Source: Clytia hemisphaerica (taxonomy: Eukaryota > Cnidaria > Hydrozoa > Leptothecata > Clytiidae). Taken from it: 64,000 nucleotides of DNA. This document shows, piece by piece, positions 3,320 to 42,857 of the stretch. The position numbers and the translations under genes were made by a program. Location of the stretch: positions 37,527 to 101,526 of the forward strand of contig CACVBU010000534.1 in NCBI GenBank assembly GCA_902728285.1, in the 5' to 3' direction. The notes beneath the pieces were generated by a model that did not search any database, was not told the origin of the DNA, and was given only the letters and a program-made list of their open reading frames with translations. Within the stretch, counting starts at the first letter, position 1. Each line of letters starts with the position of its first letter.

Positions 3320-3783
3320 TACCTTAAGGGAAGAAATTTTCGCGAGAAGAAATTTTCACGAAAGAAATTTTCGCGGAATTTAATTTCGCGAATTTGGGTG
3401 TAATTCGCGAAATTAAGTTCCGCGAAACACACCAAAATTGTTAAATCGCGAAATTAAATTCCGCGAAATTCGATTTTTTTTCTTCTTCTTTTATTTTGTT
3501 GTTTTTGACCAGGTATTACCAAAAAATATGGACACAATTGATTTTTAAGCATTATAACGTGTATTTCTTATCAAATATAAACAAATATAAATAACTCCGT
3601 GGTGGTTAAAAGTTAATTTAAGTTGATAACTTCTTCTTAATCGCGAAATTAAATTCCGTGAAACTTTTGAAATCGGCTCATTCGCGAAATTAAATTCCGC
3701 GAAATTTGCCATTTTGAAACTCTGATTCGCGAAATTAAATTCCGCGAAAATTTCTTCTCGCGAAAATTTCTTCCCTTAAGGCA
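3320..3783. mobile_element. Hairpin MITE with CTTAAGGGAAG termini
   Basis: The left end (TACCTTAAGGGAAGAAATTT) and right end (AAATTTCTTCCCTTAAGGCA) are inverted copies. The arms consist of repeated TTTCGCGAAATTAAATTCCGCG phrases in both orientations, so most of the 464 bp can fold back. It encodes nothing. A related element with the same TACCTTAA ends lies at 51877-52098. TA at the left edge suggests TA insertion; the right edge reads CA. Confidence 0.75.
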
Positions 3784-3834
3784 TATGAACGAGGAGTGTT
3801 CACTTCGCGTTTAGTGAAGTAGTTCGCGAGCGCA

Positions 3835-4197
3835 ATGTCTCTCAAGAATGTCGAAGCAAGTAGAATATTTCAAAAGCGCCAAGGAAGAAAACTTTTTCTG
3901 ACAGAGAAAGCAAGCCATAATAAAAAATGCAAAACATCACCAAAAGAAGGAGTACATCATAAATACAAGCCTTTGGAACTTTCAAAAGATGGATCTTCAA
4001 AGCTGTTTTCAAGACATTCGAGATTCGACCAGTATAATTCAGAAGTTTTCATAATAAAAGAGACTGATACAGAGGCTGAGGAGGAAGTTGTAGAAGAAGT
4101 GCTTCCAGCAAAGATGACGTCTATGGTTGAGTTGTTTAAACCAAACGCAGAACTGACAGGCATTATTTGTTTATCTGACACTGATAGTAATTCTTGA
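3835..4197 (+). CDS. Small basic/acidic protein with SUMO-interaction-like motifs
   Basis: 120-codon frame starting at the ATG in GCAATGTCTC. I do not recognise the protein. The N-terminal half is Lys/Arg-rich. Around residues 70-90 a hydrophobic FII core is followed by an acidic run (ETDTEAEEE), and the protein ends with IICLSDTDSNS. Both match the SUMO-interaction pattern of a short aliphatic core followed by acidic or Ser residues. It sits just left of the 221-bp palindromic array and mirrors the 91-codon frame on the far side. AATAAA occurs at 4455. It could be a first or only exon. The reading frame is plausible; the function is inferred from motifs only. Confidence 0.45.
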   Translation: MSLKNVEASRIFQKRQGRKLFLTEKASHNKKCKTSPKEGVHHKYKPLELSKDGSSKLFSRHSRFDQYNSEVFIIKETDTEAEEEVVEEVLPAKMTSMVELFKPNAELTGIICLSDTDSNS

Positions 4198-4780
4198 TTC
4201 TTTTCATGAGAGTTTTGAGCTTTACTGGGGTATCATTGGTAATTTACAACTGTAAGGCATTTATAGATTCAGTTGCTAAGTTCCATGATGGTGATATTCT
4301 TACTATATTCTTAATATTTTGGCCAATTTGATCATATTCTTATAAAGTATTTTCTTATAAAAAAAGCGTATACATCATATTGATAGCTTTATTGATTTAT
4401 GACATTGATCAATATTGATCGATTGGTTTATGATGTTGTACAATTTAATGATTCAATAAAAATCAATAAATAAGGATAATGGGACAGAGTTTTCAATTTC
4501 TGATATGCATACTTTTAAATGGTGGGCGTTGGTTTGAGATTCTTTGCACTATGGCATTCATTTATCATCTTGTAAAAAAATCCAAACTTTGTTTTGCTTG
4601 AATATCCTATGAGATTTAGAAAAGGTATAGTAAAAATATTTCAAAATATTCCATCATATCTATTTAATAAATCTGAAAATGTAATGTATACTTCTTTGAT
4701 GAACTACCTTCAATGTGTAGACAACTGGTAGCAAATAAATAGCCTGTCAAGTTAAGCTTTCAATTGCTTTCATAGTCCAA
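4198..4780. other. Spacer with decayed edge of the 221-bp array
   Basis: AT-rich. TTCTTATAAAAAAAGCGTATA at about 4350 resembles a recurring repeat end seen near 24340, 29190 and 61300. From about 4725 decayed phrases of the neighbouring array appear (GGTAGC, AGCCTGTC, AGTTAAGC), so the array edge has diverged. Confidence 0.45.
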
Positions 4781-6570
4781 GTTCTTAAATGGGCTACTTT
4801 GACAGTAGCCCACTCGTAGCCAGCTGGTAGCCCACCATTTTTAGCTTAAGATTGCTTGGTAGCCTGTAGCCCGTTCAAATATGCCTAAATTATGATTTCC
4901 CAATGACGTCATGTCAATAATAGGAGAATGGGAACGAATAATAGAGAACGAGACATGCGCACTTAAGTGAAATTTGGACTTTGTCGTTTTTTTAGTAGAA
5001 AATTCTTAAATGGGCTACTTTGACAGTAGCCCACTCGTAGCCAGCTGGTAGCCAACCATTTTTAGCTTAAGATTGCTTGGTAGCCTGTAGCCCGTTCAAA
5101 TATGCCTAAATTATGATTTCCCAATGACGTCATGTCAATAATAGGAGAATGGGAACGAATAATAGAGAACGAGACATGCGCACTTAAGTGAAATTTGGAC
5201 TTTGTCGTTTTTTTAGTAGAAAATTCTTAAATGGGCTACTTTGACAGTAGCCCACTCGTAGCCAGCTGGTAGCCCACCATTTTTAGCTTAAGATTGCTTG
5301 GTAGCCTGTAGCCCGTTCAAATATGCCTAAATTATGATTTCCCAATGACGTCATGTCAATAATAGGAGAATGGGAACGAATAATAGAGAACAAGACATGC
5401 GCACTTAAGTGAAATTTGGACTTTGTCGTTTTTTTAGTAGAAAATTCTTAAATGGGCTACTTTGACAGTAGCCCACTCGTAGCCAGCTGGTAGCCAACCA
5501 TTTTTAGCTTAAGATTGCTTGGTAGCCTGTAGCCCGTTCAAATATGCCTAAATTATGATTTCCCAATGACGTCATATCAATAATAGGAGAATGGGAACGA
5601 ATAATAGAGAACGAGACATGCGCACTTAATGAAATTTGGACTTTGTCGTTTTTTTAGTAGAAAATTCTTAAATGGGCTACTTTGACAGTAGCCCACTCGT
5701 AGCCAGCTGGTAGCCCACCATTTTTAGCTTAAGATTGCTTGGTAGCCTGTAGCCCGTTCAAATATGCCTAAATTATGATTTCCCAATGACGTCATATCAA
5801 TAATAGGAGAATGGGAACGAATAATAGAGAACGAGACATGCGCACTTAAGTGAAATTTGGACTTTGTCGTTTTTTTAGTAGAAAATTCTTAAATGGGCTA
5901 CTTTGACAGTAGCCCACTCGTAGCCAGCTGGTAGCCAACCATTTTTAGCTTAAGATTGCTTGGTAGCCTGTAGCCCGTTCAAATATGCCTAAATTATGAT
6001 TCCCCAATGACGTCATATCAATAATAGGAGAATGGGAACGAATAATAGAGAACGAGACATGCGCACTTAAGTGAAATTTGGACTTTGTCGTTTTTTAGTA
6101 CAAAATTCTTAAATGGGCTACTTTGACAGTAGCCCACTCGTAGCCAGCTGGTAGCCCACCATTTTTAGCTTAAGATTGCTTGGTAGCCTGTAGCCCGTTC
6201 AAATATGCCTAAATTATGATTTCCCAATGACGTCATATCAATAATAGGAGAATGGGAACGAATAATAGAGAACGAGACATGCGCACTTAAGTGAAATTTG
6301 GACTTTGTCGTTTTTTTAGTAGAAAATTCTTAAATGGGCTACTTTGACAGTAGCCCACTCGTAGCCAGCTGGTAGCCCACCATTTTTAGCTTAAGATTGC
6401 TTGGTAGCCTGTAGCCCGTTCAAATATGCCTAAATTATGATTTCCCAATGACGTCATATCAATAATAGGAGAATGGGAACGAATAATAGAGAACGAGACA
6501 TGCGCACTTAATTGGAATTTGGACTTTGTCGTTTTTTTAGTAGAAAATTCTTAAATGGGCTACTTTGACA
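4781..6570. repeat. Left arm of palindromic satellite: eight 221-bp units
   Basis: GGGCTACTTTGACAGTAGCC begins at 4791, 5012, 5233, 5454, 5674, 5895, 6115 and 6336, and a partial unit starts at 6557, giving a period of 220-221 bp. Each unit holds several GTAGCCC/GGGCTAC words, a perfect TGACGTCA (the CRE/ATF consensus), GGAGAATGGGAACGAATAAT and ACATGCGCACTT. A diagnostic site alternates between GGTAGCCCACC (units 1, 3, 5, 7, 8) and GGTAGCCAACC (units 2, 4, 6), so the array probably grew as 442-bp dimers. Identity between units is very high. Confidence 0.95.
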
Positions 6571-8062
6571 ATCATAATTCTTAGATACTGTATTCCATTC
6601 TCCTATTTTCAATGTGACGTCACTCTAAGTAAGACATTTTACCATATTTCACCGGGCTACGGGCTACCAAACAACTTCAAGCTAAAATTGATGGGCTACC
6701 AGTTGGCTACCAGCGGGCTACAATCAATGTAGCCCATCTTAGAAAGAATTCGATGAAAATTAACAAAGTCCACATTTTCATGAAGTGCGCATGTCTCGAT
6801 CTTAGATACTGTATTCCATTCTCCTATTTTAAATGTGACGTCACTCTAAGTAAGACATTTTACCATATTTCACCGGGCTACGGGCTACCAAACAACTTCA
6901 AGCTAAAATTGATGGGCTACCAGTTGGCTACCAGCGGGCTACAATCAATGTAGCCCATCTTAGAAAGAATTCGATGAAAATTAACAAAGTCCACATTTTC
7001 ATGAAGTGCGCATGTCTCGATCTTAGATACTCGTTTCCATTCTCCTATTTTCAATGTGACGTCACTCTAAGTAAGACATTTTACCATATTTCACCGGGCT
7101 ACGGGCTACCAAACAACTTCAAGCTAAAATTGATGGGCTACCAGTTGGCTACCAGCGGGCTACAATCAATGTAGCCCATCTTAGAAAGAATTCGATGAAA
7201 ATTAACAAAGTCCACATTTTCATGAAGTGCGCATGTCTCGATCTTAGATACTCTATTCCATTCTCTATTTTTAACATGACGTCACTCTAAGAAAGATATT
7301 TTACCATATTTCACCGGGCTACGGGCTACCAAACAACTTCAAGCTAAAATTGATGGGCTACCAGTTGGCTACCAGCGGGCTACAATCAATGTAGCCCATC
7401 TTAGAAAGAATTCGATGAAAATTAACAAAGTCCACATTTTCATGAAGTGCGCATGTCTCGATCTTAGATACTCGTTTCCATTCTCCTATTTTCAATGTGA
7501 CGTCACTCTAAAAAAGACATTTTACCATATTTCACCGGGCTACGGGCTACCAAACAACTTCAAGCTAAAATTGATGGGCTACCAGTTGGCTACCAGCGGG
7601 CTACAATCAATGTAGCCCATCTTAGAAAGAATTCGATGAAAATTAACAAAGTCCACATTTTCATGAAGTGCGCATGTCTCGATCTTAGATACTCTATTCC
7701 ATTCTCCTATTTTTAACATGACGTCACTCTAAGAAAGATATTTTACCATATTTCACCGGGCTACGGGCTACCAAACAACTTCAAGCTAAAATTGATGGGC
7801 TACCAGTTGGCTACCAGCGGGCTACAATCAATGTAGCCCATCTTAGAAAGAATTCGCTTAAAATCAACAAAGTCCACATTCTCATGAAGTGCGCATGTCT
7901 CGATCTTAGATACTCTATTTCATTCTCCTATTTTTAACATGACGTCAATCTAAAAAAGATATTTTACCATATTTGAATGGGCTACGGGCTACCAAGTAAC
8001 TTCAAGCTAAAATGGGACGGCTACCAAAGGGCTCCCCAAGGGCTACTCTCAAAGTAGCCATA
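6571..8062. repeat. Right arm of palindromic satellite: seven 221-bp units, inverted
   Basis: ACCGGGCTACGGGCTACCAA recurs at 6651, 6872, 7093, 7313, 7534 and 7755, with a diverged copy near 7976. The unit is a diverged reverse complement of the left-arm unit: GGGCTACC, TGACGTCA, AAGTGCGCATGTCTCG and ACAAAGTCCA correspond in order and spacing. The arms abut near 6570 with no real spacer. Alternating variants (TACTCGTTTCC versus TACTCTATTCC) again indicate dimeric growth. The repeated 66-codon frames here are repeat artefacts. Confidence 0.93.
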
Positions 8063-8242
8063 TTTGTAAAAAACAATGAAAAATTACAAAGTGTCCAGTG
8101 TAAATGTGTGCGCATGCGTTACTTAAAAAAGTCTGCCTCGTTGTGATGAATTTACCTCATTTTCATTTTGTTGTTACTTAAATAGTGTCTTACAGTTAGT
8201 CTGTCACCTTTCTTTTAATCTGGTGTTCAGTAAGCACAGAAC

Positions 8243-8518
8243 ATGCCAAAACGCAAGATTGACGATGTTATATATCTTGACTCCGCTGATTCCAGCGGAG
8301 TCGAAACAGAATACGAGACAACCGTATACAAAATTGATGGCATGCCTTGCCTAAAGAGGAAACGGCTATACAAAGTGCGGTACCAGCGAATTTTGCCACA
8401 GTGGCTTGTCACGGAAGAACATGAAGCAAAAGAGGAATTGAAGGAGGTAAAGAAAAAGGAAGAAGCAAAAGAGGAATTGAAGGAAGTAAAGAAAAACGAA
8501 GAAGCAAAACAGAAATAA
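8243..8518 (+). CDS. Small protein with N-terminal SIM-like motif and Lys/Glu repeats
   Basis: 91-codon frame. After MPKRKID comes DDVIYLDSADSS, a hydrophobic VIYL core followed by acidic and Ser residues, as in SUMO-interaction motifs. The C terminus is a near-perfect repeat of EEAKEELKEVKK (about residues 58-88) that should form a charged helix or coiled coil. AATAAA overlaps the stop codon (8514). It lies between the right satellite arm and its decayed copies, and like the 3835-4197 protein pairs a basic region with a SIM-like motif. Family unknown. Confidence 0.45.
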   Translation: MPKRKIDDVIYLDSADSSGVETEYETTVYKIDGMPCLKRKRLYKVRYQRILPQWLVTEEHEAKEELKEVKKKEEAKEELKEVKKNEEAKQK

Positions 8519-8689
8519 ACATTTAAAGCTCTTGGCAATTTTAGAATGATTTTAATTTTTATTCAGAATAATTTTCTTTATATCGTTATCTATATGTCGT
8601 GCAAATAGTACTGAAATATAAGTGAAATATCCTACTGAAAGCTCAAAAACCTTTGTCTTTTATTCTTGAATGCAACAACTTAGAAACTC

Positions 8690-9240
8690 AAAATCTTTCT
8701 TATTTGAATAGGCAATGGAATTGCTTTTGTAGCCAAATGGCCAGTTGATTTAAAGTAGTACTATGTTTTTTAATGACGTCACTGACAATTTGATAGAAAA
8801 TCGGACAAAAATAGTCATGTGAAGCTTTATTTCGTTATTTGGAAATTCCTATCTCTGTCCAATACCCTATTGAATTGTCAACAATATCATTCAAAATGGC
8901 TGGAACTACCATAAATTTATTGGCTACTGGGTTATCAAAGCAAGTTAAAAGGAAAATTGGCAGGCTATTTATTTTCTACTAGTGGTCTACATTCGAAATA
9001 GTTTATCGATCAAAAAGAATTAAAAATGACAAAGTTTTACTTCTTATTGAGTGCGCATGTCAAAAAATTACAATTTTATTATGTCCTTTTCTATTTTCAG
9101 TTACGTCATTCATAGAAATAACTTTCTTATTCTTCCAAAAATCATTTGGCTACTTGGCTATCATGTAAATTGTAGACTAAAATCGACAGACTTTCTATTT
9201 GCTACCAGTGGTCTGCAGTTAGAGTAGTCCTTTTGAGGAA
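8690..9240. repeat. Decayed copies of the right-arm 221-bp unit
   Basis: The order of landmarks matches the array unit at much lower identity: TGACGTCA near 8774, GGCTACTGGGTTATCAAAG near 8920, GAGTGCGCATGTC near 9050, TTACGTCA near 9102, then TTTGGCTACTTGGCTATC. These are older copies outside the young centre, so divergence rises away from the palindrome axis. Confidence 0.65.
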
Positions 9241-9420
9241 ATAAATTCAAAATTTCAAAATTTGAAATGAATGGGAATGTATTACTACTATACAAGTAGA
9301 GAATTGCATAGCAGAACAATATAATTATCTTAAATGACACTGGCCTATACAAATTTCCAATATTCAATTTTCAAATATTTAATTAACCGTTTAAATAACA
9401 CTTTAAAATTCATAGTCAAT

Positions 9421-11436
9421 TTACATTTTCAAAAGCTTTTTAAATTTTGCTGAATCTGCTCGTACCCTCAACGAGTCTCTTGTCCTTGAGGGGTGAAATT
9501 CAAATGTTTTGTCTTTTATAATGGCTGCCCAATTCTTCTCACCATGTTTTTGTATCCCTTTTAAAAGCTCCCCATCTTCCTCTTGTGAAAATTTGATATT
9601 TCTAGATTTTCTTGTCTCTTTAATGGCAATTTCCTTTTTCACCTCTACACTTTCAGTTATTCTTCTTTTGTCGTAACTCTTAGCGTTTTGAGGACGTTTT
9701 GGTGTAGAGGATACAGTTGACCTTACGACTTCCATTTGTACGTCTCTTGACTCGTTTAGATTTTGATTTGAGATAGGTGAAGTCGAACACATTGATTGTA
9801 CACGTTGCATGATGTTGTTCACTTCAGTGCATTGAGCCTCGATATTACTTGGTTCGAATGCGTCATCGTCTGAATCTACTATCATTGGAATCAGATTGTT
9901 TGTTGAGGTTGAAGAAGAAGATGAACTAGCAACTGCGTCTTGACTTGGTCGTGATTCAATTGTATTTCTTGACAGGGCAGCTAAATCTCTGAGCACGCCT
10001 GAACATGCTTCTTGGTGATCCTTTCGTGTAGTACCAAGCATTTTCTCCATGCATTGACGACCTTGTGTGGCGACTATTCTCGATTGTTTCTTTTTGTAGT
10101 GAACCTTTGCAACATCAGAGCTATGTTTTTGATCCTCTGATATTATCTCCTGTTCGGATCGAGATAATCTATCCGCACTTGCTGTTTCAACTATTTGTCG
10201 ATATCTTGTTGGATGGATATACTTTCCTATGGCTTGATGTACAATTAAAGTCATTGCAGTTGTCAAAGATTGATATTGATTCCCTGTTGTCGATACTAAC
10301 AGATAGTCACAACTTGGTTTCATAAGAGGTCTAACAAAGTCTGTGTATGTGTCCAAGACAGTAAATACTTCTTCAGTTAAGATGAGAGTATCAAAAAGAT
10401 ATTTACCTGTCGTTTTGAACTCCCTCTGGTCAATGAAACCATCAGCCTGCTTTGCTTTTTCGATCATTGTTAGAGTCAAGTATTGAAATGTCATTGGTCT
10501 ACTGCACTTCACACGTAAAAATAAAAAGGTTGTGATGAAACGAGTACAGAATGTAAGCTCTTGTTTATTGGGTAATGGTTGTTGTACTTTGCACTTGTTA
10601 ACGATTTCTTTGAATTTGAAGATATGATAAGGAATGACTCCCTCCATTTCTTCTAAAGTGGCCCAGCTGTCTCGACCAATGAGAGTTTCTAGGTCAAAGT
10701 TTCTCGTGCCGTCAAGGCGTTTCTTCTTTCTCAGATTTTCCTTTGCTCTCCTCAAATAAACTTCTGTGATTGTAAAACACCTCAATTTATTATCATTGAT
10801 TCCAAATGATTTTCTATAATCCATTAAATCAGAAATAGCTTTAACATAATTAAGTGCCCCTGAAGAAGATAGTTTCCATTGTTCGTCTAAAACAGTCAAA
10901 AATGTCAATATTATTGTTGTAGACCCTAAACAACAATCAATCAGTTCATAAGTTAAGGGTGTTTGAGATTCGTTATCCCCAGTACTGCTCATCAAAAACT
11001 TCAAAGCTCGTTTAGCGACTTGTTTAGCTTCTCTGTCATTTTTACCTCCACCGCAGGTAGTGGTCAACCACCTATAAAACGATTTTCCGATCCCTTCATC
11101 GATTGAATAGTAAGGTTTGGAACTTGTAGAGGCTTTCTTTTGTATAATAGGCTGGTTAAGTTCGACTTCTTCCCTTTTAATTTCTGGCTGGTCATCAAAA
11201 TAGTAATACCAAGGGTGCTTGTTATCTATGTGTTTTCTTAAACCTCTTTTGCTTTCAAAGTCCGAATGTAAGCACAATTTAGCTGGACATGTAAATTTAC
11301 CTTTATCATTTTCATTGAACGATAACTTTCGTTTTCCATTGGCTGATCCATTGACAGAATGCCAGTCGACGAAGAGCACCCTCCGGCGGGCCATGTTGGC
11401 CTTCCTTATGATCAGTGAGTGTTTAAACTGTGTCAT
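9421..11436 (-). CDS. Zinc-finger / tyrosine-recombinase / SANT protein (Crypton-like)
   Basis: Intronless 671-codon gene. Residues 50-74 form a C2H2 finger (C50, C55, H69, H74). Residues about 280-460 carry a tyrosine-recombinase signature: R313 in CSRPMTFQYLT, K341 in FKTTGKY, H408-P-T-R411, H438 and Y447. The H438-to-Y447 spacing of nine equals that of XerC-type enzymes, so the catalytic set appears complete. A Ser-rich linker carries IPMIVDSDDD (about 516-525), a SUMO-interaction-like motif. Residues 613-671 are a Myb/SANT domain (FSQEEDGELLKGIQ, then NWAAI) with a third helix reminiscent of telobox Myb proteins. Likely role: cutting and joining DNA as a Crypton-type or domesticated recombinase in the nucleus. 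M15 is an alternative start. No frame damage was seen. The gene ends beside the 221-bp array. The recombinase call is strong; the element's boundaries are unknown. Confidence 0.82.
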   Translation of the reverse strand: MTQFKHSLIIRKANMARRRVLFVDWHSVNGSANGKRKLSFNENDKGKFTCPAKLCLHSDFESKRGLRKHIDNKHPWYYYFDDQPEIKREEVELNQPIIQKKASTSSKPYYSIDEGIGKSFYRWLTTTCGGGKNDREAKQVAKRALKFLMSSTGDNESQTPLTYELIDCCLGSTTIILTFLTVLDEQWKLSSSGALNYVKAISDLMDYRKSFGINDNKLRCFTITEVYLRRAKENLRKKKRLDGTRNFDLETLIGRDSWATLEEMEGVIPYHIFKFKEIVNKCKVQQPLPNKQELTFCTRFITTFLFLRVKCSRPMTFQYLTLTMIEKAKQADGFIDQREFKTTGKYLFDTLILTEEVFTVLDTYTDFVRPLMKPSCDYLLVSTTGNQYQSLTTAMTLIVHQAIGKYIHPTRYRQIVETASADRLSRSEQEIISEDQKHSSDVAKVHYKKKQSRIVATQGRQCMEKMLGTTRKDHQEACSGVLRDLAALSRNTIESRPSQDAVASSSSSSTSTNNLIPMIVDSDDDAFEPSNIEAQCTEVNNIMQRVQSMCSTSPISNQNLNESRDVQMEVVRSTVSSTPKRPQNAKSYDKRRITESVEVKKEIAIKETRKSRNIKFSQEEDGELLKGIQKHGEKNWAAIIKDKTFEFHPSRTRDSLRVRADSAKFKKLLKM

Positions 11437-11699
11437 TTATACTGTTTGAAAACAGTAAACATATCCTCAACAGGGGGTTCTATTGTCATAAATGTCATAT
11501 ATTTCTTTGTTTTCTTAGGGAAAATTGATAGGTGATTGGATTGTTACTTGCAAGGGGGTTTCGTATTTTGATGAACGAGTCAAATCTTATCATCAATTGT
11601 CCATGGCTCGTGTGTATTGTTCATATTATGTTCTTTTTCTTGAGATGTAATTATCAGTTGACTAAATATTCCCATGGGAATTGTTCATTTGTTATTCTT

Positions 11700-12180
11700 T
11701 TTTGAGATGTTCATCGTTCAAATTTACTCAAATATATAATATGAAAATATTTACGATCTGAAGGTAATGATAATATATTTAATGTCTTATAATATCATCA
11801 TATCATTTACTACAAATAATATGATTTAAATATTATAATGATTTACTTATTTTATTATAACATGCAATCATATCATATTATTTTATATTATATATGATAT
11901 TTATGATAGGATTTAAATAAGATGATAATGTATTCATTGTTTTATATGTTATCAGAAACTTATAATAATAATATGGTCAAAATATTATGATTGTTTTATC
12001 ATAACCTATTAAAATCAAAATATAGTATAATATTTATGATAGTTTTGAATAATATGATAATATGATAATATAATCATAATATTATATTTATATCTATCAT
12101 ATTATCATGAATATATCATAATATGGTTAATAAGGTATCTATACTATACTACCATATTATAATATATCATAAATGTGATG
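11700..12180. other. Extremely AT-rich ATATTATGAT tract
   Basis: The stretch is composed almost entirely of A and T, with recurring palindromic phrases such as ATAATATGAT and ATCATATTAT. It lies upstream of the recombinase gene. It could be an easily unwound or matrix-attachment-like region; no gene is seen. Confidence 0.55.
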
Positions 12181-12344
12181 ACCTTCTTTGGCCATTTGAC
12201 AGGTACAGATTCTTCTTATCAATTATGAGAAAGTGAACAATAATCAGCACTATTATGACAAAGATTAATTGTTCCCTTGAAAACTGATTTTACTGTTCTT
12301 AGTGATAAGATTTTTTTCGTTTGTTTGAATAATTAAATGAGCAT

Positions 12345-12595
12345 CTATATTGTTCCCATATCAAAAGGGAATAGAATATTCCTCCAATGAATGGAACAAA
12401 TTATTCTACGCGGTATATTTAAATTGTTCCTTCATATAAAGGAACAAATAATTTCCCGCAGTATATCGAAATTGTTCCGTTAAATGAAGGAATAAATAAT
12501 TCCCCGCGGTATATTAAATTTGTTCCATTATATCAAAGAACAAATAATCCCCTGCAGTTTATTAAAATTGTTCTTTCATATAATGGAACATCTTT
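12345..12595. repeat. 48-bp array of TTGTTCC...GGAACAA palindromes
   Basis: About five units with GGAACAA or variants at 12393, 12441, 12489 and 12538, i.e. a 47-49 bp period. Each unit holds the inverted pair TTGTTCC/GGAACAA and a CCCGCGGTATAT-like core. Further single TTGTTCC/GGAACAA words continue to about 12750. It lies about 1 kb upstream of the recombinase start. Confidence 0.75.
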
Positions 12596-12599
12596 GAGT

Positions 12600-13104
12600 C
12601 CACAAGAAAAGAACAAAATAGGGTCATTGTTGTGACCCGATTTGTTCTATTCAAACAAAACAATTTATTCTCTGCAAAGAGAACAAAAGGGAATAAAATG
12701 GAATTCTCAAGAGTAGAGTTTCTTAGATTGTTCCATAAGGAACAAAAAAGAGACTTAATTGGTGTTCCTTCACTGTACATCGCAGCGCGACATTAAATGT
12801 ATCAATTTGGGAATCGTTCTCTATAGAAAAATCCCTAGAAACCGAAAAAAGAATAGCGCCATTGTTAGTAATCCTTTAAAAAGTGATAAAAATCCTTTGT
12901 TATAACAATTGCTAGTTGTTACATAACTTGGGTTTTTGTCTGACGAGATGGTATAAAATCAACTACATTAAGGTATGTCTTCGTACAATTCATCATGATT
13001 AATCAGTCGTAACATTATTAGATAAAATGTTAGATGTTTTATTTCTTATATACTTTCTTTCGTTACTCATAATTGGCCCTATGATTACTTGAGAAAAATT
13101 TCAG
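12600..13104. other. Spacer before protease exons
   Basis: AT-rich sequence with scattered GGAACAA words to about 12750 and no convincing exon. It ends with the acceptor AATTTCAG that opens the first visible protease exon. Confidence 0.4.
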
Positions 13105-15300
13105 TTCTAAATGCACTTCATTAAATTTAAAATTTAAGGAACTCGCCAAAGACACAGAACGTCGTTATTCGATTAAAAGGATAGAACTCCTTGACTATGA
13201 AATACCTAAGACCGTGAGACGAGGAAAAACTACAGAGTTTGTAAGCAGGCACTCGAAAATCGAAAGTTTAGAGAACGGACTAAAAATGAACTTGTTACCA
13301 TCCTTGAACGACATTAAAACAATGATTGACACTATAAAATCAAAGAAAAGTAAATTTGTCATTTTCGATGAAAAGTGTTTTTTCGATTTGAATGATCTTT
13401 ACGCTCTGCAGGTGGTACATGAAATGAAGGGAGTGAAAGAGGCTGTTTTGGAGGAGAAAAAGTGGTTTGGCAAGCTTGAAAAGGGTGTGAAATCACCCCC
13501 GAATTTAAAGAGGATTGGATTTGAAGATTCTTTGAACGGTTTCAAAGATATTCTTTTCAACGGCCGTGATCATGTTTATGCGAGAGAAGAGAATAAGAAG
13601 TTGGTGACCGGGTGTCTTGCATATTTGGTGGGTAGAAGATGGATAGATATTTCAGTTATGAAGTAATTTTCGGATATGCGAAATAATGACAACCACGAAC
13701 CTACGGTATGTTTTAGGCAGTTGGAAGATGAGTTTTCGGCAGGTACATTGGCAGAACGGGTGGAGAGATGGTCAGGGGCTTCAACTATTTCAGTTCTTGC
13801 TAATGTTGGTAAAAAGACTTTCATTTCGACCAAAAATGTCTTCGGTTGTCATTGGGTTTGCTTTTGCATCAACATTGCATCAAAAGAAATTCTATATTGT
13901 GACTCCTCTGCTTGGAGTCTTCCTACAGATTTCTTGAATAGGATTAAGTTTTTTGCGGATATTCTAAACACGACATTTAATGTGAACAAAGATCAACCAT
14001 ATGTGGTAACAAATTCTCATAAAACCCCAACACCTCCGTCAAAGGTCCACAGATGCAGTGACGGGTGTTTGCCACTACCGTATCAAGGACCAGATGGGAC
14101 AATATGTGGTGTAGCTGCTTTGTTTTCTGCTGTCATTCTAAGTGAAAAAGGTTTAGAACAAAGCACACTTCCTCCTTCACTATCATGGTTGACAAGTATC
14201 AACCAATTCAATGATTTTTCACGCTGCATAATGATCAGATGGTACATGCAAAGAGAAATCAACGCTCAAGACATTTGGTTAAGTGGTGAAAGAGTAAGAT
14301 AATTTATCATATTTACTTTCATGTATATACGTATCACTCTTGATTCAAGAGATCCTTTTAAAGGTAAGCTTTGCTAAAAACACTTACACAACTTTCTTAT
14401 AAGAATTACATAAATCGAAAAGAGCCTCCTTCAAGCAAGTCAATTTTCGGTCGAATTAATGGTCGAAATATATTTTCCCTTTTTTGTCTAAAACGTGAGA
14501 AAGAGATGGAGGAAACATAAACCAATTATTTCATTATGGCGTTACAGCATTATTCTTAAAAAATACTTAAAATTTGTGATTCTTATAAAAAAAGACTGCG
14601 TGCTGATTTCTAAACCAGTACACTTTTTTCTCAGAAACCTACAAAATCTTTCGAGCAACCCACTGCTGAACCAATGGATGTTGATTACGGTGAAGATATC
14701 AAGACAAGTGCATTTCAAAGTGATTCAAAAGAAGAAGATGAGCTTTTTTGTAAGAAATATGAAATTTGAGTTAAGGCTTAGGATGTTCTTTATTTTATTA
14801 CATTGTTTACACTGGCTTTGGCATCCCGATCACACAACACCCAAAAGTATTGATATTGAATGCTTAAAATCTCAACTTTTATTGGTCGAGAAGGATTTTA
14901 AGAATAAAATTGATAAGATATTCACAAGATATTTCATTTTTCGTTTCGTTTATTTTTAAGCAAATGTGACATCTAGCGTGACTGATGTGGTTGAGAAAAT
15001 CGAGAATGGAAATCTCAGCGAGTCAAAATCCAAGTTAAATGGTTGGCACATTTACTTGCACGAGAATAAGGTAACACATAATTTCTGGTTCAGTTGCTTT
15101 TTTTTCAGTTCGCTCAGTTGTTTTTTTGCCCTTTAGCTGAAAGACTTGTATATTTCAGTATCAGTACCCTTGATATACTACTATAGTATATTACTTTTTA
15201 CACTCTTCTTATTTTATAGAAAGAGCTGAAAGAGAACTTTGGAACAGGATCAAAAAAACTGAGGAAAAGCTGGAGAGATCTGGAAACAGACCAAAGAGAG
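13105..15300 (+). pseudogene. Ulp1/C48-type SUMO protease with HMG-box-like tail, interrupted by TAA
   Basis: Exons 13105-14293 (with TAA at 13664-13666), 14635-14749, 14961-15070 and 15220-15300 join in frame with canonical GT-AG sites. The C48 core is clear: WID near 13643, catalytic His in CHWVCF (codon at 13850), Asp in YCDSS, Gln in PYQGPDG and Cys in TICGV (codon at 14105). Such proteases mature or remove SUMO in the nucleus, and transposon-borne copies are known. The last exons read GWHIYLHENKKELKENF then KKLRKSWRDLE, an HMG-box-like helix pattern that implies DNA binding. The 5' end and terminal exon were not found. The TAA falls inside the first core helix, so the copy is probably dead unless the 54 nt at 13663-13716, which has GT-AG ends and keeps frame, is spliced out. 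Confidence 0.75.
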
Positions 15301-16813: not shown

Positions 16814-17034
16814 ATTCGCCGGGGCGGTTCGCATCAACGAAGGCGGTTTATCTGGCGGGGTGGTTCTTGCTCAGGGTGGTTTTTGCGAATATTACCCAGT
16901 TTCCCGTGGCGCGGTCAGAGATTCTTGGAAATTCTTGGGGGGAAAAAATTCAAAATGGTAGCTAAAATGTAAACAAATCGGTAGCGACAGCCAAATACAA
17001 AAGCGAAAGTAAATAAAAAATATAGGAAGGTAGA

Positions 17035-17604
17035 ATGAGCGCGAAGAAGTTAGTTGAAAATGTATCTAAATTTACCAAAGAAGAAGCATTAGAGTGGTTA
17101 AAAGACATTGGTCTTTCTTCAACATGTTCCAAAGATGAGCTGATCAATCGAATCAAACGTTTTATTCGCTACCCAAAACTTGTAAAAAAGCTGAAGAATA
17201 AAGCTAAGAGACATTACAAGTTTTCGTCCAGTTTGAACCCTTTGGAAATTCCTCCTTCTACTGAAAAGTGGTCCAGTAATCATGATTCATATCCAAACAT
17301 CACCAGTGAACAATTCAAATCTTATGCTTCGCAAAAATCAAAAGGAAGTCAAGGGCAGCAGATGAAGGCAGTTAGAATGTTTCAAAGTAGGAAGATAGTT
17401 TCAGTAAGGACAATCCAAGGACTTGAAGGAGGTGATTTGTTTGTAAAAGCCACTCAACGGAAAAAAGGACCGGGTCTTCCGAATTCGGTCGGCATTGTGA
17501 AAAATATACAATCTCAGCCTAAAGTACCATTTCGAGATGTCAATGGACTTTTCCAGTTTTTAGGAGCATCAAAAATAATAATATATGATGTAATAAAAAC
17601 ATAA
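17035..17604 (+). pseudogene. Truncated SAP-domain protein of a YqaJ/SWIM-type transposon family
   Basis: 189-codon frame from a clear ATG. Residues 11-45 resemble a SAP DNA-binding motif (EEALEWLKDIGLSS then KDELINRIKRF). Residues about 95-140 (SQKSKGSQGQQMKAVRMFQS, KIVSVRTIQG, DLFVKA) resemble the N-terminal part of animal proteins that continue into a SWIM zinc finger and a YqaJ-type exonuclease. Here the SWIM Cys/His residues are missing, and the frame drifts into unrelated sequence after about residue 145, so the copy looks 3'-truncated. The family link is from memory of the architecture; an intact first exon with a lost partner exon is the alternative. Confidence 0.5.
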
Positions 17605-26500: not shown

Positions 26501-29500
26501 CCTCAGAGTTTAAAAAGTAATTTCTCTGTTCTACACATTTTTTATAAGCAATCAGGCTGCTAAGGCTTGAGGCCTCAAATTTGTCAATGATTTTCCACTA
26601 TCTCGAAAAGTGACAGCTGTTTTAGATGATCTAACCATGGCAAACTATAGCCCTTTGACCCAATACACATAAATATGGTAAAATATTATGGGTATTCAAA
26701 GCAATTTTTTCAGAAAATGGACCAGAATGCTAAGTAACCCTAGGCCTGACCAGAAAATTGGAGTTGCTTATTAAAAAATGTGTATTTAATCATGTCATCT
26801 TTTTCAGTTCCATAGCAAAAACAAAAACGTCAACATTTCTTTGTTTTTAGACTAAAAAACTATGTCTAAAAGGCCTACCTTCAGCTATGTTATCATTTGA
26901 TATTCCACGTTGAGTTTAATTTAACATCATTTTTTACTTCAACCATGACAAAATCTTCATTAATTCTAACAGGGAAGTCAGAATAAGAATTTTCCAAAAT
27001 AAAATGATCTGACAGCTTGCATTCCAACCAACCAACTGTTATTTTATCTCCTGAAAATGGAAAGACAACTAGTTAAAACAAAAGTGACCAGCTTTGGTCC
27101 AGGGGGATCAAGCAGTTAGTACAAGACATCATCCCAGTTGGTACCTGGTGGTGTGTTATGTGAATTTGATTTCCTTACAAAAATCTTAAAATTGGTTTGC
27201 GGTCTGCTTCAAGCCAGCAGGGATGTGCCGTTGGAGTTTGAAAAGTGGACCCTGTGAAATATGAATTTTTGGCAAAATTGGGACTCTCTGTCAGAATGAA
27301 AAATTGAAAATTTTTCCCATTTTCACCCTGAAAAGTGGCAAAAATTAATAAAAGTAGATGAAAAATTAAAAGATTTTCGGATTTCCACCCTAAAGATTGT
27401 CCAAAATAATCAAAAATCTAAATTTTTGGGAACCTTTCATATACCGTGAGATTGGGGGAAGATGATAAAAATTGACCGTCAGTCGAACATGGTTTTTTTT
27501 CATATCTACGATTTTGTGTTTCCGGGGGTTTTGTTGTTTCGAATTGATTAACTAACAGTTAGGTAGGGTCAGGGTTGCTAGTAACGGCTTGTCACTGTGC
27601 CGGGTGCATACTCGGCGCCTTGGGCCCCGCAGGGTTGCTAGTAACGGCTCGAATTTCAGTCAGGTTAAAAAAGGGGCAATTTTACCCATATTATAATAAC
27701 ATTACCCCCGTCTTTTTAGTCATTCTATAAGTATTTACAAATTGTGTGTTTTGCTGTGCGAGTGTGGCTCAACGGATAGCGCGCTGGGTTTCTGATCAGA
27801 GACTCTTTCATTTGGTGGGTTCGAATCCCGGTCGGGTCGATATTTGGAGAAAGTTTGAAATATCAAATTCATAGAAAAGTTAGTAGAAATCAGAAAACAA
27901 GTCTCAGAAAGTCAGAAAATAGAAAAGGAGATAGAGAGATAGGAAGTAGAAAAACAGAAGAGTGATGTTCGATTGACGGTCAATTTCTATCACCTTCCGA
28001 GATTGGGCAACTTGCATCAGTGGAGGCTAACATGCATAGCTCTCGAATGATTGACCTGGCTGGTTGGTCATTAAAATACAACATTAAATCAAAACAAAAA
28101 TGGTAGAGTACTACTACTAGCAGAGCTGCGTAGTTCATTTGTTTTGAAATTTTTCTGATTTAATTGGTCAGCCGTCTGATGGCTATGGAGCCTAAAAATG
28201 GGACCCTGTCACCAGCAGCGAAACATACCCAATTTTGCCTAAGTGCCTCCCCCTGGGAGGCTAATACCCTGAAGTTTTTCAAAAGTAAATTGTTGTGGAA
28301 AATCCACATTGTCCACTGGAGGTTAACAGACTATAACTGGAACTGCCCATAGCTTTGAAAAGCTGTGGTGTAGCCATGTGTATGTATAGTCATACAGACA
28401 CATACCACACTTCAATCATACTTTTTGTGTCAAGACTGGACACAAAAAGTATGATTGAAGTGTGGTTGATGATTAGAAATATATAAAAAGGAGCTCACCT
28501 AAGCATCTTTTGATTCCCATTTCATATCTTTAGAATAAAGTTTCCATTTGCAATGCATTTTGGCTTGCTTTGGTTTGCTGTCTTCCTCATTGCCTTCCAC
28601 TCCACAACTTCCAGTTTCAAAAAGAAATTTGCCGGCAATCATCAATCATAACATTCGAAAATAATCTAAGTTTTTTTCCGGGGGTTTGCAAAAGTACTTC
28701 CAATGATGTGGATATTATATTTACAGTATTTAACCGTAAACTGTGTATGTAATACACTTAGAACTATTTCATTTTACAAGAAATTTAGATATTTTAGTAT
28801 CTTCTTGTGTTTTAAACGTCAAAAATTATGCTTCAGATAGTCTTTTTGATCCCCGGTATTCATCAGTGCGGACCTTGGTTCGTAAACGTTTTGGCGCGTC
28901 CTTCTTTCAGCAACATGGAAAAACCAAGAGAAGTTCATCTTTCAAGAAGTTGAAAGACGTCGAAATACGATGAGCGTCGAAATTTTTTCTTTTTTTATAA
29001 GAAGAACCAGAAAATTTTGGCTCAGGCTGGGCTGTCTGGACGGCCTGGACTGTTCTTAATTTTTCGAGGTTTTTAGGCTTAAATGTTCTTACGATTAGTT
29101 TTTTTCCTTAAGAAATTAAAATGGCTTAAAATCTATTAAAATTAAAACCCATTAAAATCAGCAAACTCGTGTTCTTTTAAAATTGTTCCTATAAAAAAGC
29201 GTGTATTTAAAAAATATTAAACATTAAACATTAAACGTAAAAGTGTAAAAGTTCGCCTTTCGAAAAGTTGGAAGACGTCGATATACGAGTTTTAGACATC
29301 TTTTTGAAAAATTGAAAGTTTCTATTTCGAAACTTTTGAAAGACAGAGAAGTTCATCTTTCGAAAAGTTGAAAGACGTCGATAAACGACTTTTCGACATC
29401 TTTTTGAAAAATTGAAAGTTTCTATTTCGAAACTTTTGAAAGACAGAGAAGTTCATCTTTCGAAAAGTTGAAAGACGTCGATAAACGACTTTTCAACATC

Positions 29501-38226: not shown

Positions 38227-38527
38227 TGTTAACCGTTTCCTTCAGCTTCAATTGATTTTTAGCGCTTTATCCAGGAAAAATAGCGAAATAAAGCGAAAAA
38301 CAAGCAAAAAGAGATGAAAATTTTTTATGATTTCTGACGTCAGAAATAAAAAATGAGAGAAATGATGTCAACGCATTGTTAATTTTCCTTTGAAAAAGTG
38401 ACGTCACAATGAATTTTCCTAACGACGAGCAACTCTGGACAGTGAAGGCCCGTCGTCATGCGAAAAGAACCAATTGCATTGCGCAAAAAGCAGTGTAGCC
38501 CGCTTCGAAAAAGTAAACGGTTAACAA
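38227..38527. mobile_element. MITE with TTGTTAACCGTTT termini
   Basis: The left end TTGTTAACCGTTTCC and right end GTAAACGGTTAACAA are inverted. Inside are two TGACGTCA palindromes (CTGACGTCAGAAAT and GTGACGTCACAAT), 70 bp apart. The right two-thirds is duplicated almost identically at 39805-40018. Confidence 0.7.
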
Positions 38528-38929
38528 TGAGTAGTAACGCCTGGTCCTATTCAATTTAGTTGATAACCAATCCCAATAATTGATAGTTGATCGAGACTAA
38601 AATCTTGAGTACTGTATATATTGATTGATCATTGTTTTTTTTTAATCTTGTTAGAGCCAATTTATGATCATTCGATCAATCGATAAGCAATCGAGCCTCC
38701 TTTAAAAAAACATGATTATCAAATGGAAAGAGTTATCAGTGTATTGAATGGGAGAGTGTGTGTTAAACCAGACTCTCCCAATCGATACAATCTATAACTT
38801 TTTCCAATTCATGTTGACCAATCGATTGTATATTGATTAATTCCAATAATCGATAGACAATCGCTAATCAGAATTCCAAGGCAGGCTTGATTGCCTGAAT
38901 GAAAAAAAACAATCAAAGATCATGATAGA

Positions 38930-39710: not shown

Positions 39711-39804
39711 TATATCCGCCATTAATACAATAATGACCGGTTAGTGAGGGCTGTACTGAGAAATATTGCCCAAGGTCAAGTAACGACCGAGCTTGCGAGA
39801 AGAG

Positions 39805-40018
39805 ATAAAAAATTGCTATAATTTCTGACGTCAGAAATAAAAAATGAGAGAAATGATGTCAACGCATTGTTCATTTTCCTTTGAAAAAGTGACGTCACAT
39901 GGAATTTTCCTAACGACGGGCAACTCTGGACAATGTAGGCCCGTCGTCATGCGAAAAGAACCAATTGCATTGCGCAAAAAGCCATGTAGCCCGCTTCGAA
40001 AAAGTAACCGGTTAACAA
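39805..40018. mobile_element. Second copy of the TTGTTAACCGG MITE
   Basis: The sequence from AGAGATAAAAAATT through TGACGTCAGAAATAAAAAAT, GTGACGTCACATGG and CCCGTCGTCATGCGAAAAG to GTAACCGGTTAACAA repeats 38310-38527 with few changes and in the same orientation. The left end differs, so this copy is partial or rearranged. Confidence 0.7.
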
Positions 40019-42342
40019 TGATGGGATAGAGTATGGATTGAGTGAACATGCAGCTGTTTTTTCAGATAAAAAAGAAGAGGGCTCTCCTGGGAGCAGACAT
40101 ACCTCTAGTCTACATAAGAACTTGCCTTCAGCTCAATACAGTAGTGAAAGCCATTACACATGGACAAGGGGGTCTCAAATCAACAGTCACAGTGCATAAT
40201 TCTCAAGTTTGAACGTGGGAAAACCTCTAAAAGTTAAAAATAATTATTAAGTTACCTTTTTCAATACTTCTTCAGAATATGCATAGTGAGTGAAACACAT
40301 TCATGACCAATAAATTGGCAGCAGGTCCATTCAAAAGCCTTGAGTTGAGTACCACCAGTTCAATGCACGCTCATCGCCATATTGAAAAGGAAATTACTGA
40401 CCCAAAAGCGTCCAAACGTGAAAAAAGCCGAATCAAAACAAAAATTCGTGGTCACACTTGTAAAAGCTTTCACGGTAGAAATACGCATATTTATTGTTGT
40501 AAGTGAAGCCAGCGAAAAGTTCAAACGCGCTCAAATATGAAATATTTCGAAACCTTTTTCTCTATCCTTTTTTCCGTTGAGTTTCGGTGTTTGAAGAAAA
40601 AAGTGAAGGTATTCCGGTGTCAAACATGCCATGCGGTGACAAAAATAAGGATTTTACCAAATTTTTGCTGTCGGTGTTGACGGTAATCCAAGAAATACGC
40701 GTCGGTATTTCGGTGTCTGCGACCCCCGTACACCCCCTATAATTTCTCTGCAAGAGTTTAACCGTTTTTTTCTAACCAAAAATAAAAGCATTATGGCTTA
40801 GAAAGTCTTCGGGTTTATTATACTAGGAGTAAAGATTCATTGGAGACAAAAATGGTTAAATGTTATTTTGTATATTTTCCAGGATCACAGTTGACTGGTA
40901 AGACGAAGTCGTTCAAATATTATACAGTTCAGATGCTAAAAATCTCAATGCGAGATTGACTTATTCAAAAACAAAGCGAAAATCCTTTTAGTACTCGTAT
41001 ATGACCCCCCTACTCTCAGAACCTTATGCTCTCATATGCGTTAGGTGGATTGATTTTGGCAGGGATTAAACTTTGAAAATCATCTATTTGCCAAATTAAA
41101 TCCCTGCCGAATTTAACAATGTTATTTCTATAAAAATTATATGTAAAATCAGCATTTTTTAGTGAAAGTACCAAGTACCTTATTGGAAGAAATTTTGACG
41201 GGAATTTAATTTGGACGGTGTCTCAAAAAGCTTTTTGAGAGGGAATTTAATTTGGCCGACGATGGTTTTCAAGGTTCAAAGTCAAGGTGAACATGTTGAA
41301 AATTCACCCTTTTTGGGCGTAAATAGTGACTGTTCTAGATCTGTAATCTTGTGATAGCCTGACAGGTGTTAACTCGGGTTATTCATTTCTCTGGCACAAC
41401 CAGAAATTAAACAAATTCTTCGCACATTTGTCTTCGGTTTTGATTCTGTGACTTTTTTGCTATATGGCTTGCGTTGCTTGTACGATAGATCCCGAGCGCT
41501 AATATGGTCTAAATTATGATCTGGAAGGGTTTTTGATTCAAGGTGTCAGACCAAATCAGACTTTATTTCTTTGCCACATATTGGGCATACCTTTATGTAT
41601 TTGTTTTTTTTATTCCTATCGTGTAAGGATATAAAAGAAAAGGTGTACAGCACAATTCATTTTGTTTTTATGCTTACGACTTTGGATACATGATGGCTAG
41701 AGAAAATGTTTTTTTTTTAAATATCAAATAAATCAAGACGTTTGTACAATCTATTGGATACGATACGAAAAGTGAGTTAAGGAAAACTTAATTATAAACT
41801 TTCAATTTGGCCAAAATTTTTAGTCGGCCCAAATTTTAGTCACCAAGCCAAAATTTAGTCACTTAGGGCCGACTAAGTTTTGGCCGATAAGGTAATTGTG
41901 AATGTTTCGTTTGACCTGACTAGAAAGTTTAGTGGTTGGTAGCGCTCCACTTGGTTGCAGGATGTGTGAATAAGCGACTCACACTAGTAAATTTAGGTAT
42001 AAGAAGTTCATTCATAGTGATATAATTTGTGTTTTATGTTCAAATTCGTCATATCCTTCTTCTCTTTCAGTCGTACGGCGACTCGGATACGGCACGCCGA
42101 ACCGGGCTCTAGGCAAACTTTTCAATTCTGCGTATTTCTTTCTTAATCTCTTCTAGATTGTGCTTGATCAACACTTTCTTCTCTTTTGGTTAGATGACGG
42201 GTGACTCAAGTAGCAGGAGATGCTTACTCATGGCCACACCTGTTGTCAGACTTTGGTTCTCATCCATCTGCAATCCATTAATTTCTCAACTTTCTTTAGG
42301 TTCACTTAACGGTTTTCTCTATGCTAATTTGTGTTTCTGTCT
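40019..42342. other. Intergenic with repeat fragments only
   Basis: No exon is supported. At about 41045-41270 phrases such as GGGAATTTAATTTGG and GGCAGGGATTAAAC occur in both orientations, recalling the 3320-3783 MITE family. At 41810-41895 TTTTAGTCAC and GGCCGATAAGG recall the 32366-32696 family. The open frame at 42194-42445 is not protein-like. Confidence 0.4.
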
Positions 42343-42351
42343 GTTTGTCGA

Positions 42352-42857
42352 GGAGGTGATAGAAATTGACCGTCAACCGAACATCATCCCTCTGTTTTTC
42401 TACTTCCTATCTCTCTATCTCCTTTTCTATTTTCTGACTTTCTGAGACTTGTTTTCTGATTTCTACTAACTTTTCTATGAATTTGATATTTCAAACTTTC
42501 TCCAAATATCGACCCGGCCGGGATTCGAACCACCAAATGAAAGAGTTTATGATTAGAAACCCAGCGCGCTATCCATTGAGCAACACTCGCACAGCAGAAT
42601 ACAAAATTTGTAAATACTTATAGAATGACAAAAAAGACCCCCTTTTTAACCTGACTGAAATTCGAGCCGTTACTAGCAACCCTGCGGGGCCAAAGGCGCC
42701 GAGTATGCACCCGGCACAGTGACAAGCCATTACTAGCAACCCTGACCCTACCTAACTGTTAGTTAATCAATTCTAAACAACAAAACCCCCGGAAACACAA
42801 AATCGTAGATAGGAAAAAAAACCATCTTCGACTGACGGTCAATTTTTATCACCTTCC
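42352..42857 (-). mobile_element. MITE with 9-bp target duplication and tRNA-like promoter (copy B)
   Basis: GTTTGTCGA stands directly on both sides (42343-42351 and 42858-42866). Termini GGAGGTGATAGAAATTGACC and GGTCAATTTTTATCACCTTCC match those of copy A. The internal order is the reverse complement of copy A, including TTACTAGCAACCCTG repeated twice and the tRNA-like segment. Independent perfect target duplications in two copies confirm the element's limits. Confidence 0.9.
42508..42596 (-). ncRNA. tRNA-derived segment in MITE copy B
   Basis: On the minus strand, box B reads GGTTCGAATCC (42521-42531) and box A reads TTGCTCAATGG (42573-42583). Box B is preserved and box A carries two changes relative to copy A. 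The stem positions have drifted. Confidence 0.7.

Follow-up and report, generated by a model that had tools for sequence, protein, structure and literature searches.

The question raised by a 64,000-nucleotide stretch of the Clytia hemisphaerica genome (contig CACVBU010000534.1, positions 37,527 to 101,526 of the forward strand; hereafter the window) is whether a gene for a putative tyrosine recombinase (YR) and the palindromic array of 221-bp repeats close to it belong together, and what the array could be for. Judged by comparison with copies elsewhere in the genome, the gene and the array are two parts of one multicopy mobile element of about 9 kb. This element is very probably a tyrosine-recombinase DNA transposon, and it probably cuts and rejoins DNA by means of its own recombinase. 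The first-pass annotation of the window, which had suggested an undescribed Crypton-like element, was largely right, the gene and the array being parts of a single mobile element whose ends can be defined. Outside fungi and a few animals, there are few descriptions of complete YR transposons with numerous intact copies; the present one would offer a defined recombination core, a reusable target in the abundant tips of miniature inverted-repeat transposable elements (MITEs), and tandem accretion.

The element and its recombinase

The assembly comprises 417 Mb in 951 contigs, the window lying within contig C374 of G000; the contigs (C) and the stretches or copies (L208-L233) named below come from the same assembly. 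A search for further loci with the gene, as proposed by the first-pass annotation, gave at least 81 matches to the window protein at E 0.01 or better, a lower bound with 66 of 633 candidates scored; 16 of these extend from residue 11 or earlier to residue 670 or later without a stop. With the protein of a far relative, L227, as the query, at least 85 matches were found (80 of 481 candidates scored). The comparison made earlier with host genes that have lost catalysis does not apply to such a multicopy mobile element.

For the comparison of copies, 20 stretches of 10 kb were fetched, which together with the window copy make 21 family copies. The whole element spans 3782..12973 in the window (9,192 bp, no strand assigned), and homology among copies breaks at both points: close copies resemble the window between about 3.76-3.8 kb and 12.97 kb and no further. 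Because the breaks occur in copies at different places of the genome, they locate the ends of the element. The low end reads CATATGAACGAGG or CATATCATCAAAT, and the high end TATAAAATCAACTACATTAAGG; L216-L218, with 84% protein identity, have the same two ends. In the seven copies for which a single stretch contains both ends, the element is 5,753-9,481 bp long. Terminal inverted repeats are absent, since by inspection CATATGAACG... and ...ACTACATTAAGG are not inverted copies of each other, and no reverse transcriptase was found among the open reading frames (ORFs) of at least 80 aa in 3782-12973. Apart from the recombinase gene and two small ORFs described below, ORFa and ORFb, the reading frames of this size are antisense to these three or lie within the array.

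The recombinase gene (9421..11436, minus strand) has 671 codons and no intron, and encodes a C2H2-like finger, a YR core, and a Myb domain. M15 (position 11394) is a likelier start than M1, as most full-length copies align from residue 9-11. The motif order reported by the first-pass annotation is present, the catalytic-type residues being R313, K341, H408-x-x-R411, H438, and Y447, with an H-to-Y spacing of 9. Motif order alone is weak evidence, because the same set appears by chance in 130 of 20,000 shuffles; hence a YR profile was built from the integrases of 80 IMG/VR loci and XerD, with 78 rows after filters. Residues 255-475 score 29.1 against this XerD-like profile in hhalign, compared with at most 21.12 for 400 shuffles and at most 20.14 for 38 other ORFs of the window. 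The alignment of the 21 family members scores 34.2 (200 column shuffles, at most 21.7), its aligned part ending just past the HxxR box, and in a looser XerD alignment H438 and Y447 fall on the H and Y of XerD. It is these profile scores above the controls that support the assignment.

Besides the chance rate of the motif set, several observations weigh against the assignment. No YR model matching the protein exists in Pfam or NCBIfam, and sequence searches in Pfam, PHROGs, NCBIfam, and PDB gave no YR match. The looser XerD alignment puts R413, not R411, on the HxxR arginine, with H408/R411 two positions off, and leaves the first arginine unaligned; R411 and R413 are both invariant across the 21 copies, and either may be the catalytic arginine. 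All 21 copies have R313, K341, R411, H438, and Y447, and 20 have H408, but the residues around these positions are nearly invariant too, so conservation at these sites cannot be ascribed to catalysis in particular. AlphaFold without an alignment, run twice on the single sequence, gave a predicted local distance difference test (pLDDT) score of 35, which speaks neither for nor against the fold. No relatives were found in IMG/VR and phages, the IMG/VR scans requiring exact short peptides.

As for the domains said to be added to the core, the SANT/Myb domain holds, PF00249 reaching the Pfam cutoff at the C-terminus, whereas the C2H2 finger (C50/C55/H69/H74) is recognisable only as a pattern (no Pfam match better than E 0.2), though present in 20-21 of the 21 copies. 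Uncharacterised proteins with a C2H2 finger, a YR core, and a Myb domain occur in invertebrate genomes.

The recombinase is kept under purifying selection. The ratio of nonsynonymous to synonymous substitution rates (dN/dS, method NG86, with four pairs involving the window copy saturated) is 0.10 between subfamilies (window versus L216 or L217) and 0.15-0.27 in six of seven closer pairs. The seventh close pair, with a ratio of 0.52, speaks against such constraint at a dS of 0.005, that is, with almost no changes.

ORFa (3835..4197, plus strand, 120 aa) has its start 54 bp inside the low end. Of the 13 low ends listed, 11 have an ORF of 118-129 codons whose start lies 37-54 bp inside; two entries from L212 have 38 and 56 codons, the second being cut by the end of the stretch. 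The low-end ORFs of distant subfamilies, those of L224 and L225 among them, are of similar length but unlike the window ORFa in sequence. A dN/dS of 0.65-0.77 between near subfamilies indicates weak constraint on ORFa, which counts against our reading of the element; other values are 0.26 for the pair with L210 and 0.25 at a dS of about 2. ORFb (8243..8518, plus strand, 91 aa) matches no known domain and is also found in L208-L210, L228, L233, and, at 56-63%, in L229.

Insertion at MITE tips and tandem copies

Judging by its flanks, the element inserts at CGCGAAAA-type MITE tips. In the window, the MITE with the insertion site occupies 3322..3781, with tips CCTTAAGGGAAG.../...CTTCCCTTAAGG and a TA at its left; a TAAGG core forms the low junction at the MITE tip (3777..3781), another forms the high junction (12969..12973), and TA follows at 12974-12975, beyond the high end of the element. 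All 11 unrearranged non-tandem low ends found in the fetched stretches and the window (the rearranged low end of L208 was left out of the counts) abut the tip of a CGCGAAAA-rich inverted-repeat MITE with a TAAGG-like core; nine fit the tip pattern, and L209 and L224 do so loosely. On the opposite side, the right flank starts with TA in nine of nine readable non-tandem high ends (window, L210, L213, L215-L219, and L232), the flank of a tenth, L209, reading N. Genome-wide, the strict tip pattern was found filled in 23 cases and empty in 1,154, with no case for the reversed patterns; these are counts of exact strict patterns at tips, in which variant tips are missed. The free MITE tip is visible in seven loci and reads ...TAAGG/TA in six of them.

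Head-to-tail junctions, in which two ends are joined, number 12 in the genome (control, 0) and have one core between the copies. Examples are L212, L225, and two pairs on C321 with copies 7,376 bp apart. The single core fits integration into the end of a resident copy, or integration of a circle. Tandems may join different subfamilies, L212 being a candidate case. Directly upstream of the low end of L212 (1969, in window orientation) lie diverged recombinase pieces, with 54-60% identity over two longer pieces.

A TATAAAA box stands at 12952..12958 (plus strand), 22 nt from the high end and pointing outward. It is present in nine of nine aligned high ends (window, L209, L210, L212, L213, L215-L218), a count that rests on the alignment of the whole end region; a separate list of ends had been filtered on TATAAA and gives no independent count. 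Joined ends would set this box 75 nt upstream of the start of the window-type ORFa, and the MITE-tip pattern has no such box.

We propose that the recombinase circularises the element by joining its two ends. The site so formed, ...ACTACATTAAGG/CATAT..., would recombine with a MITE tip ...CCnnTAAGG/TA..., the crossover falling within TAAGG, and recombination of the joined site with the end of a resident copy would give rise to tandems. Our guess is that the joining brings TATAAAA upstream of ORFa, which could then be expressed from circles and tandems. If this is true, the element is a transposon living on the ends of other transposons.

Two observations count against this scheme. The free MITE tip in L217 reads ...TAAGG/CC and is not TA-flanked, and junctions of this kind would also result if another enzyme duplicated the 5-bp TAAGG. 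Movement of the element by a DDE-type transposase supplied in trans, with such a duplication, is nevertheless very unlikely: TAAGG at both sides would look alike under either mechanism, but the only large ORF of the element is that of a conserved YR-like protein, and terminal inverted repeats are lacking. The two sides differ within the five bases in L209 and at the sixth in L213 and L218; it is only L209 (CAAGG at the left; TAAG, then N, at the right) that argues against plain duplication, a single case with a masked base.

The internal array

The left arm of the array in the window (4782..6570, minus strand) holds about 8.1 units of 221 bp, and the right arm (6579..8124, end approximate, plus strand) seven, the last of them diverged. 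The arms are 71-74% identical in an alignment of full units and 75-79% identical by blast. Decayed units in right-arm orientation were detected at 8785..9283 (plus strand; score 101 versus 28 for the best of 100 shuffles). The palindrome of 221-bp units described in the first-pass annotation is thus present, but the gene does not lie directly beside recognisable units, which end near 8124; ORFb (8243-8518) intervenes, and decayed units continue to about 9283.

The 221-bp unit has one TGACGTCA and six GGCTAC boxes, and the boxes agree between the arms at 36 of 36 positions versus 123 of 185 elsewhere (p 2.8e-6). The inverted site GGGCTAC-N7-GTAGCCC is found 15 times in the window array, one per unit, with one of them mismatched (chance mean 0.02), and 441-bp higher-order periods are present. 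At the palindrome centre (6548-6578), the left arm stops exactly past the 7-bp spacer of its GGGCTAC-N7-GTAGCCC site. Two likenesses were set aside: that of GGGCTA to telomere repeats, where a match within one mismatch has about 11% coincidence by our own count and the window has no exact telomere pair, and the occurrence of the inverted site in 119 IMG/VR stretches, which was taken as chance, each of the 80 listed having one site.

The array largely travels with the gene, a check suggested by the first-pass annotation: with Tandem Repeats Finder (TRF) and self-comparison of each copy, a tandem array was detected on the 3' side of the gene in 20 of the 21 copies, and inverted arms in 14. It is internal, that is, between the low end and the gene, in the 10 array-bearing copies whose low end lies in the stretch. 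Direct repeats only are seen in L220-L223, L225, and L226, where the low end is outside the stretch and a second arm may lie beyond. Several types of units were found, namely, 221 bp; 222-225 and 190 bp, which are distant relatives of the 221-bp unit; 109 bp, with arms 97-99% complementary in L216, L218, and L219; 128-129 bp, akin to one 112-bp unit; and another, separate 112-bp unit. The window array has no match at E 1e-10 in L216-L226. Across the copies compared, the array keeps its place and, in many cases, its arrangement as inverted tandems although its sequence changes, and this makes the cis-acting needs of such elements testable.

The strongest within-unit lag is 10, 11, 20, or 22 in all eight units considered; six of them beat at least 286 of 300 shuffles, and the lag of the other two is indistinguishable from shuffles. 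Lags of 10 or 11 bp fit binding sites lined up along a single helical face. We give about even chances to the suggestion that the internal array is a cis-acting platform in which candidate binding sites recur about once per helical turn, for a DNA-binding protein encoded by the element (the recombinase with its finger and Myb domain, or ORFa/ORFb), serving regulation, synapsis, or circle replication.

A number of facts weaken the case for the array as a regular and functional part of the element. The phasing amounts to about four independent cases, as the two arms and the 222- and 190-bp units are relatives, and so are the 128-bp unit and one of the 112-bp units. Direct repeats also occur in four of nine control pieces of the window (19, 2, 8, and 2 matches), and three of the nine have one inverted match each; many-fold inverted matches are found in none of the nine. 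L224 has the gene and the low end with no array between them. At least 19 contigs have 221-type units, and a recombinase match lies within 10 kb in 11 of the 19 listed; C613, C622, C341, and C257, also on the list, were left out of the fetched set. C265 and C469 carry the array and ORFb, their likeness to the window ending at 8716 and 8709, respectively, and no recombinase follows this break in 4.7 kb (C265) or in 1.6 kb up to the contig end (C469). On the one side covered, none was found in 6.0 kb of C879 and 6.9 kb of C890; C890 has a low end. Separation of array and gene, which the first-pass annotation would, if frequent, have taken against the pairing, is seen in C265, C469, and L224. C265 and C469 are possibly gene-less derivatives.

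Two observations on single copies belong here. A 112-bp tandem array in L224 (8665-9984) is located on the 5' side of the recombinase gene, either a moved array or that of a neighbouring copy. In L228 and L233, the array and ORFb are present, likeness to the window stops at nearly identical positions (8709 and 8716, respectively), and no recombinase comes after; they may form a gene-less subfamily.

Among other explanations of the array, a satellite trapped passively in the element and homogenised without any function is possible, though we doubt it. It is favoured by a unit sequence that is not conserved over all subfamilies, by the decayed edges of the array, by L224, which lives without a 3' array, and by the 441-bp higher-order periods, which are ordinary satellite turnover; the constant position of a tandem array, which lies to one side of the gene in 20 of the 21 copies, has inverted arms in 14, and is made of at least three unrelated unit types, the boxes conserved between arms, and the helical phasing in six of eight units point the other way. 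That the array is the recombination substrate of the recombinase, as the first-pass annotation had it, is quite unlikely. Each 221-bp unit indeed has an inverted GGGCTAC-N7-GTAGCCC site resembling a YR core, with 15 such sites at one per unit, and the 222-bp unit of L227 has a site of the same form, but the site is missing from the 109-, 112-, and 128-bp units as printed, and the junctions observed lie at the ends of the element in a TAAGG-like core; this claim found no support. It is highly improbable that a host gene has been domesticated next to an array acting as promoter of ORFb: the unit does have TGACGTCA and a GTGCGCATG box, and the last right-arm unit lies upstream of ORFb, yet the gene is multicopy, with ends, tandems, and target sites.

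A platform of binding sites could also belong to a plasmid-like selfish element, in which the circle would be replicated or partitioned via the inverted array of phased iterons bound by its own proteins, ORFa would be active in the joined state alone, and the recombinase would park the circle at MITE tips; this wider scheme we consider unlikely. The yeast 2-micron plasmid combines a YR with small accessory ORFs and a cis-acting array of iterated units, and is an episome without a MITE target; the likeness is an analogy only.

Known systems and the surroundings of the element

Features of Cryptons in the broad sense are found here, namely, a YR with R-H-R-Y (the HxxR register being uncertain) and the absence of reverse transcriptase and terminal inverted repeats. 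Foldback elements are defined by inverted tandem repeats at their termini; the array described here is internal in the 10 copies mentioned. A reverse transcriptase, which marks DIRS/Ngaro elements, is lacking.

The description of the animal CryptonA and CryptonI by Kojima and Jurka (2011; PMC3212892) gives them no C-terminal domain and no terminal repeats. The present element resembles them as a DNA transposon with a tyrosine recombinase, without terminal inverted repeats or reverse transcriptase, and differs in the Myb domain, the finger, two further ORFs, the inverted internal array, the 5-bp core, and the MITE-tip target. PF00249 and a 5-bp direct core set it apart from that group's description; we file it as a YR DNA transposon and not as CryptonA. 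The fungal and oomycete CryptonF and CryptonS, as covered by the same source, have terminal direct repeats of 5-6 bp, for CryptonF likely the integration substrates, and some carry an extra protein; unlike the present element, they have GCR1_C or another C-terminus and a C48 peptidase instead of ORFa/ORFb, and are from fungi, oomycetes, and a diatom (PMC3212892). The DUF3504 host genes KCTD1, KIAA1958, ZMYM2-4, QRICH1, and WOC are likewise YR-derived, several with added DNA-binding domains, but according to that account they lost the catalytic residues (PMC3212892), which are kept here in a multicopy gene and not at a conserved host locus.

According to PMC10871703, the C2H2-bearing recombinases of nimaviruses target telomere repeats, and others target 28S rDNA. 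The telomere-associated ones share with the present protein the combination of C2H2 and YR and insertion into a defined repeat; they reside in large viral genomes, and their targets are telomeres or 28S (PMC10871703). YR retroelements are covered, at least in part, by PMC4157794. Searches of the open-licence PubMed Central literature, Repbase lying outside their scope, brought up no description of a YR element arranged in this way or targeting MITE tips.

Near the high end, within the element, there are about four 48-bp repeats with GGAACAA/TTGTTCC (12386..12590, no strand assigned). Beyond the ends lies a multi-exon-looking gene (13085-15300, plus strand) with a weak C48/Ulp1-like match that stays below the Pfam cutoff; at 13664 its reading frame is interrupted by a stop or a short intron. 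An ORF with a weak SAP-domain match is found at 17026-17604 (plus strand). Two 222-bp repeats at 38309-38530 and 39800-40021, 93.7% identical, have two TGACGTCA, one TGCGCA, and one GTAGCCC; with the 221-bp unit they have TGACGTCA and GTAGCCC in common and no longer stretch. Finally, an inverted repeat pair at 27457-27995 and 42354-42857, 89.6% identical, probably consists of transposon copies.

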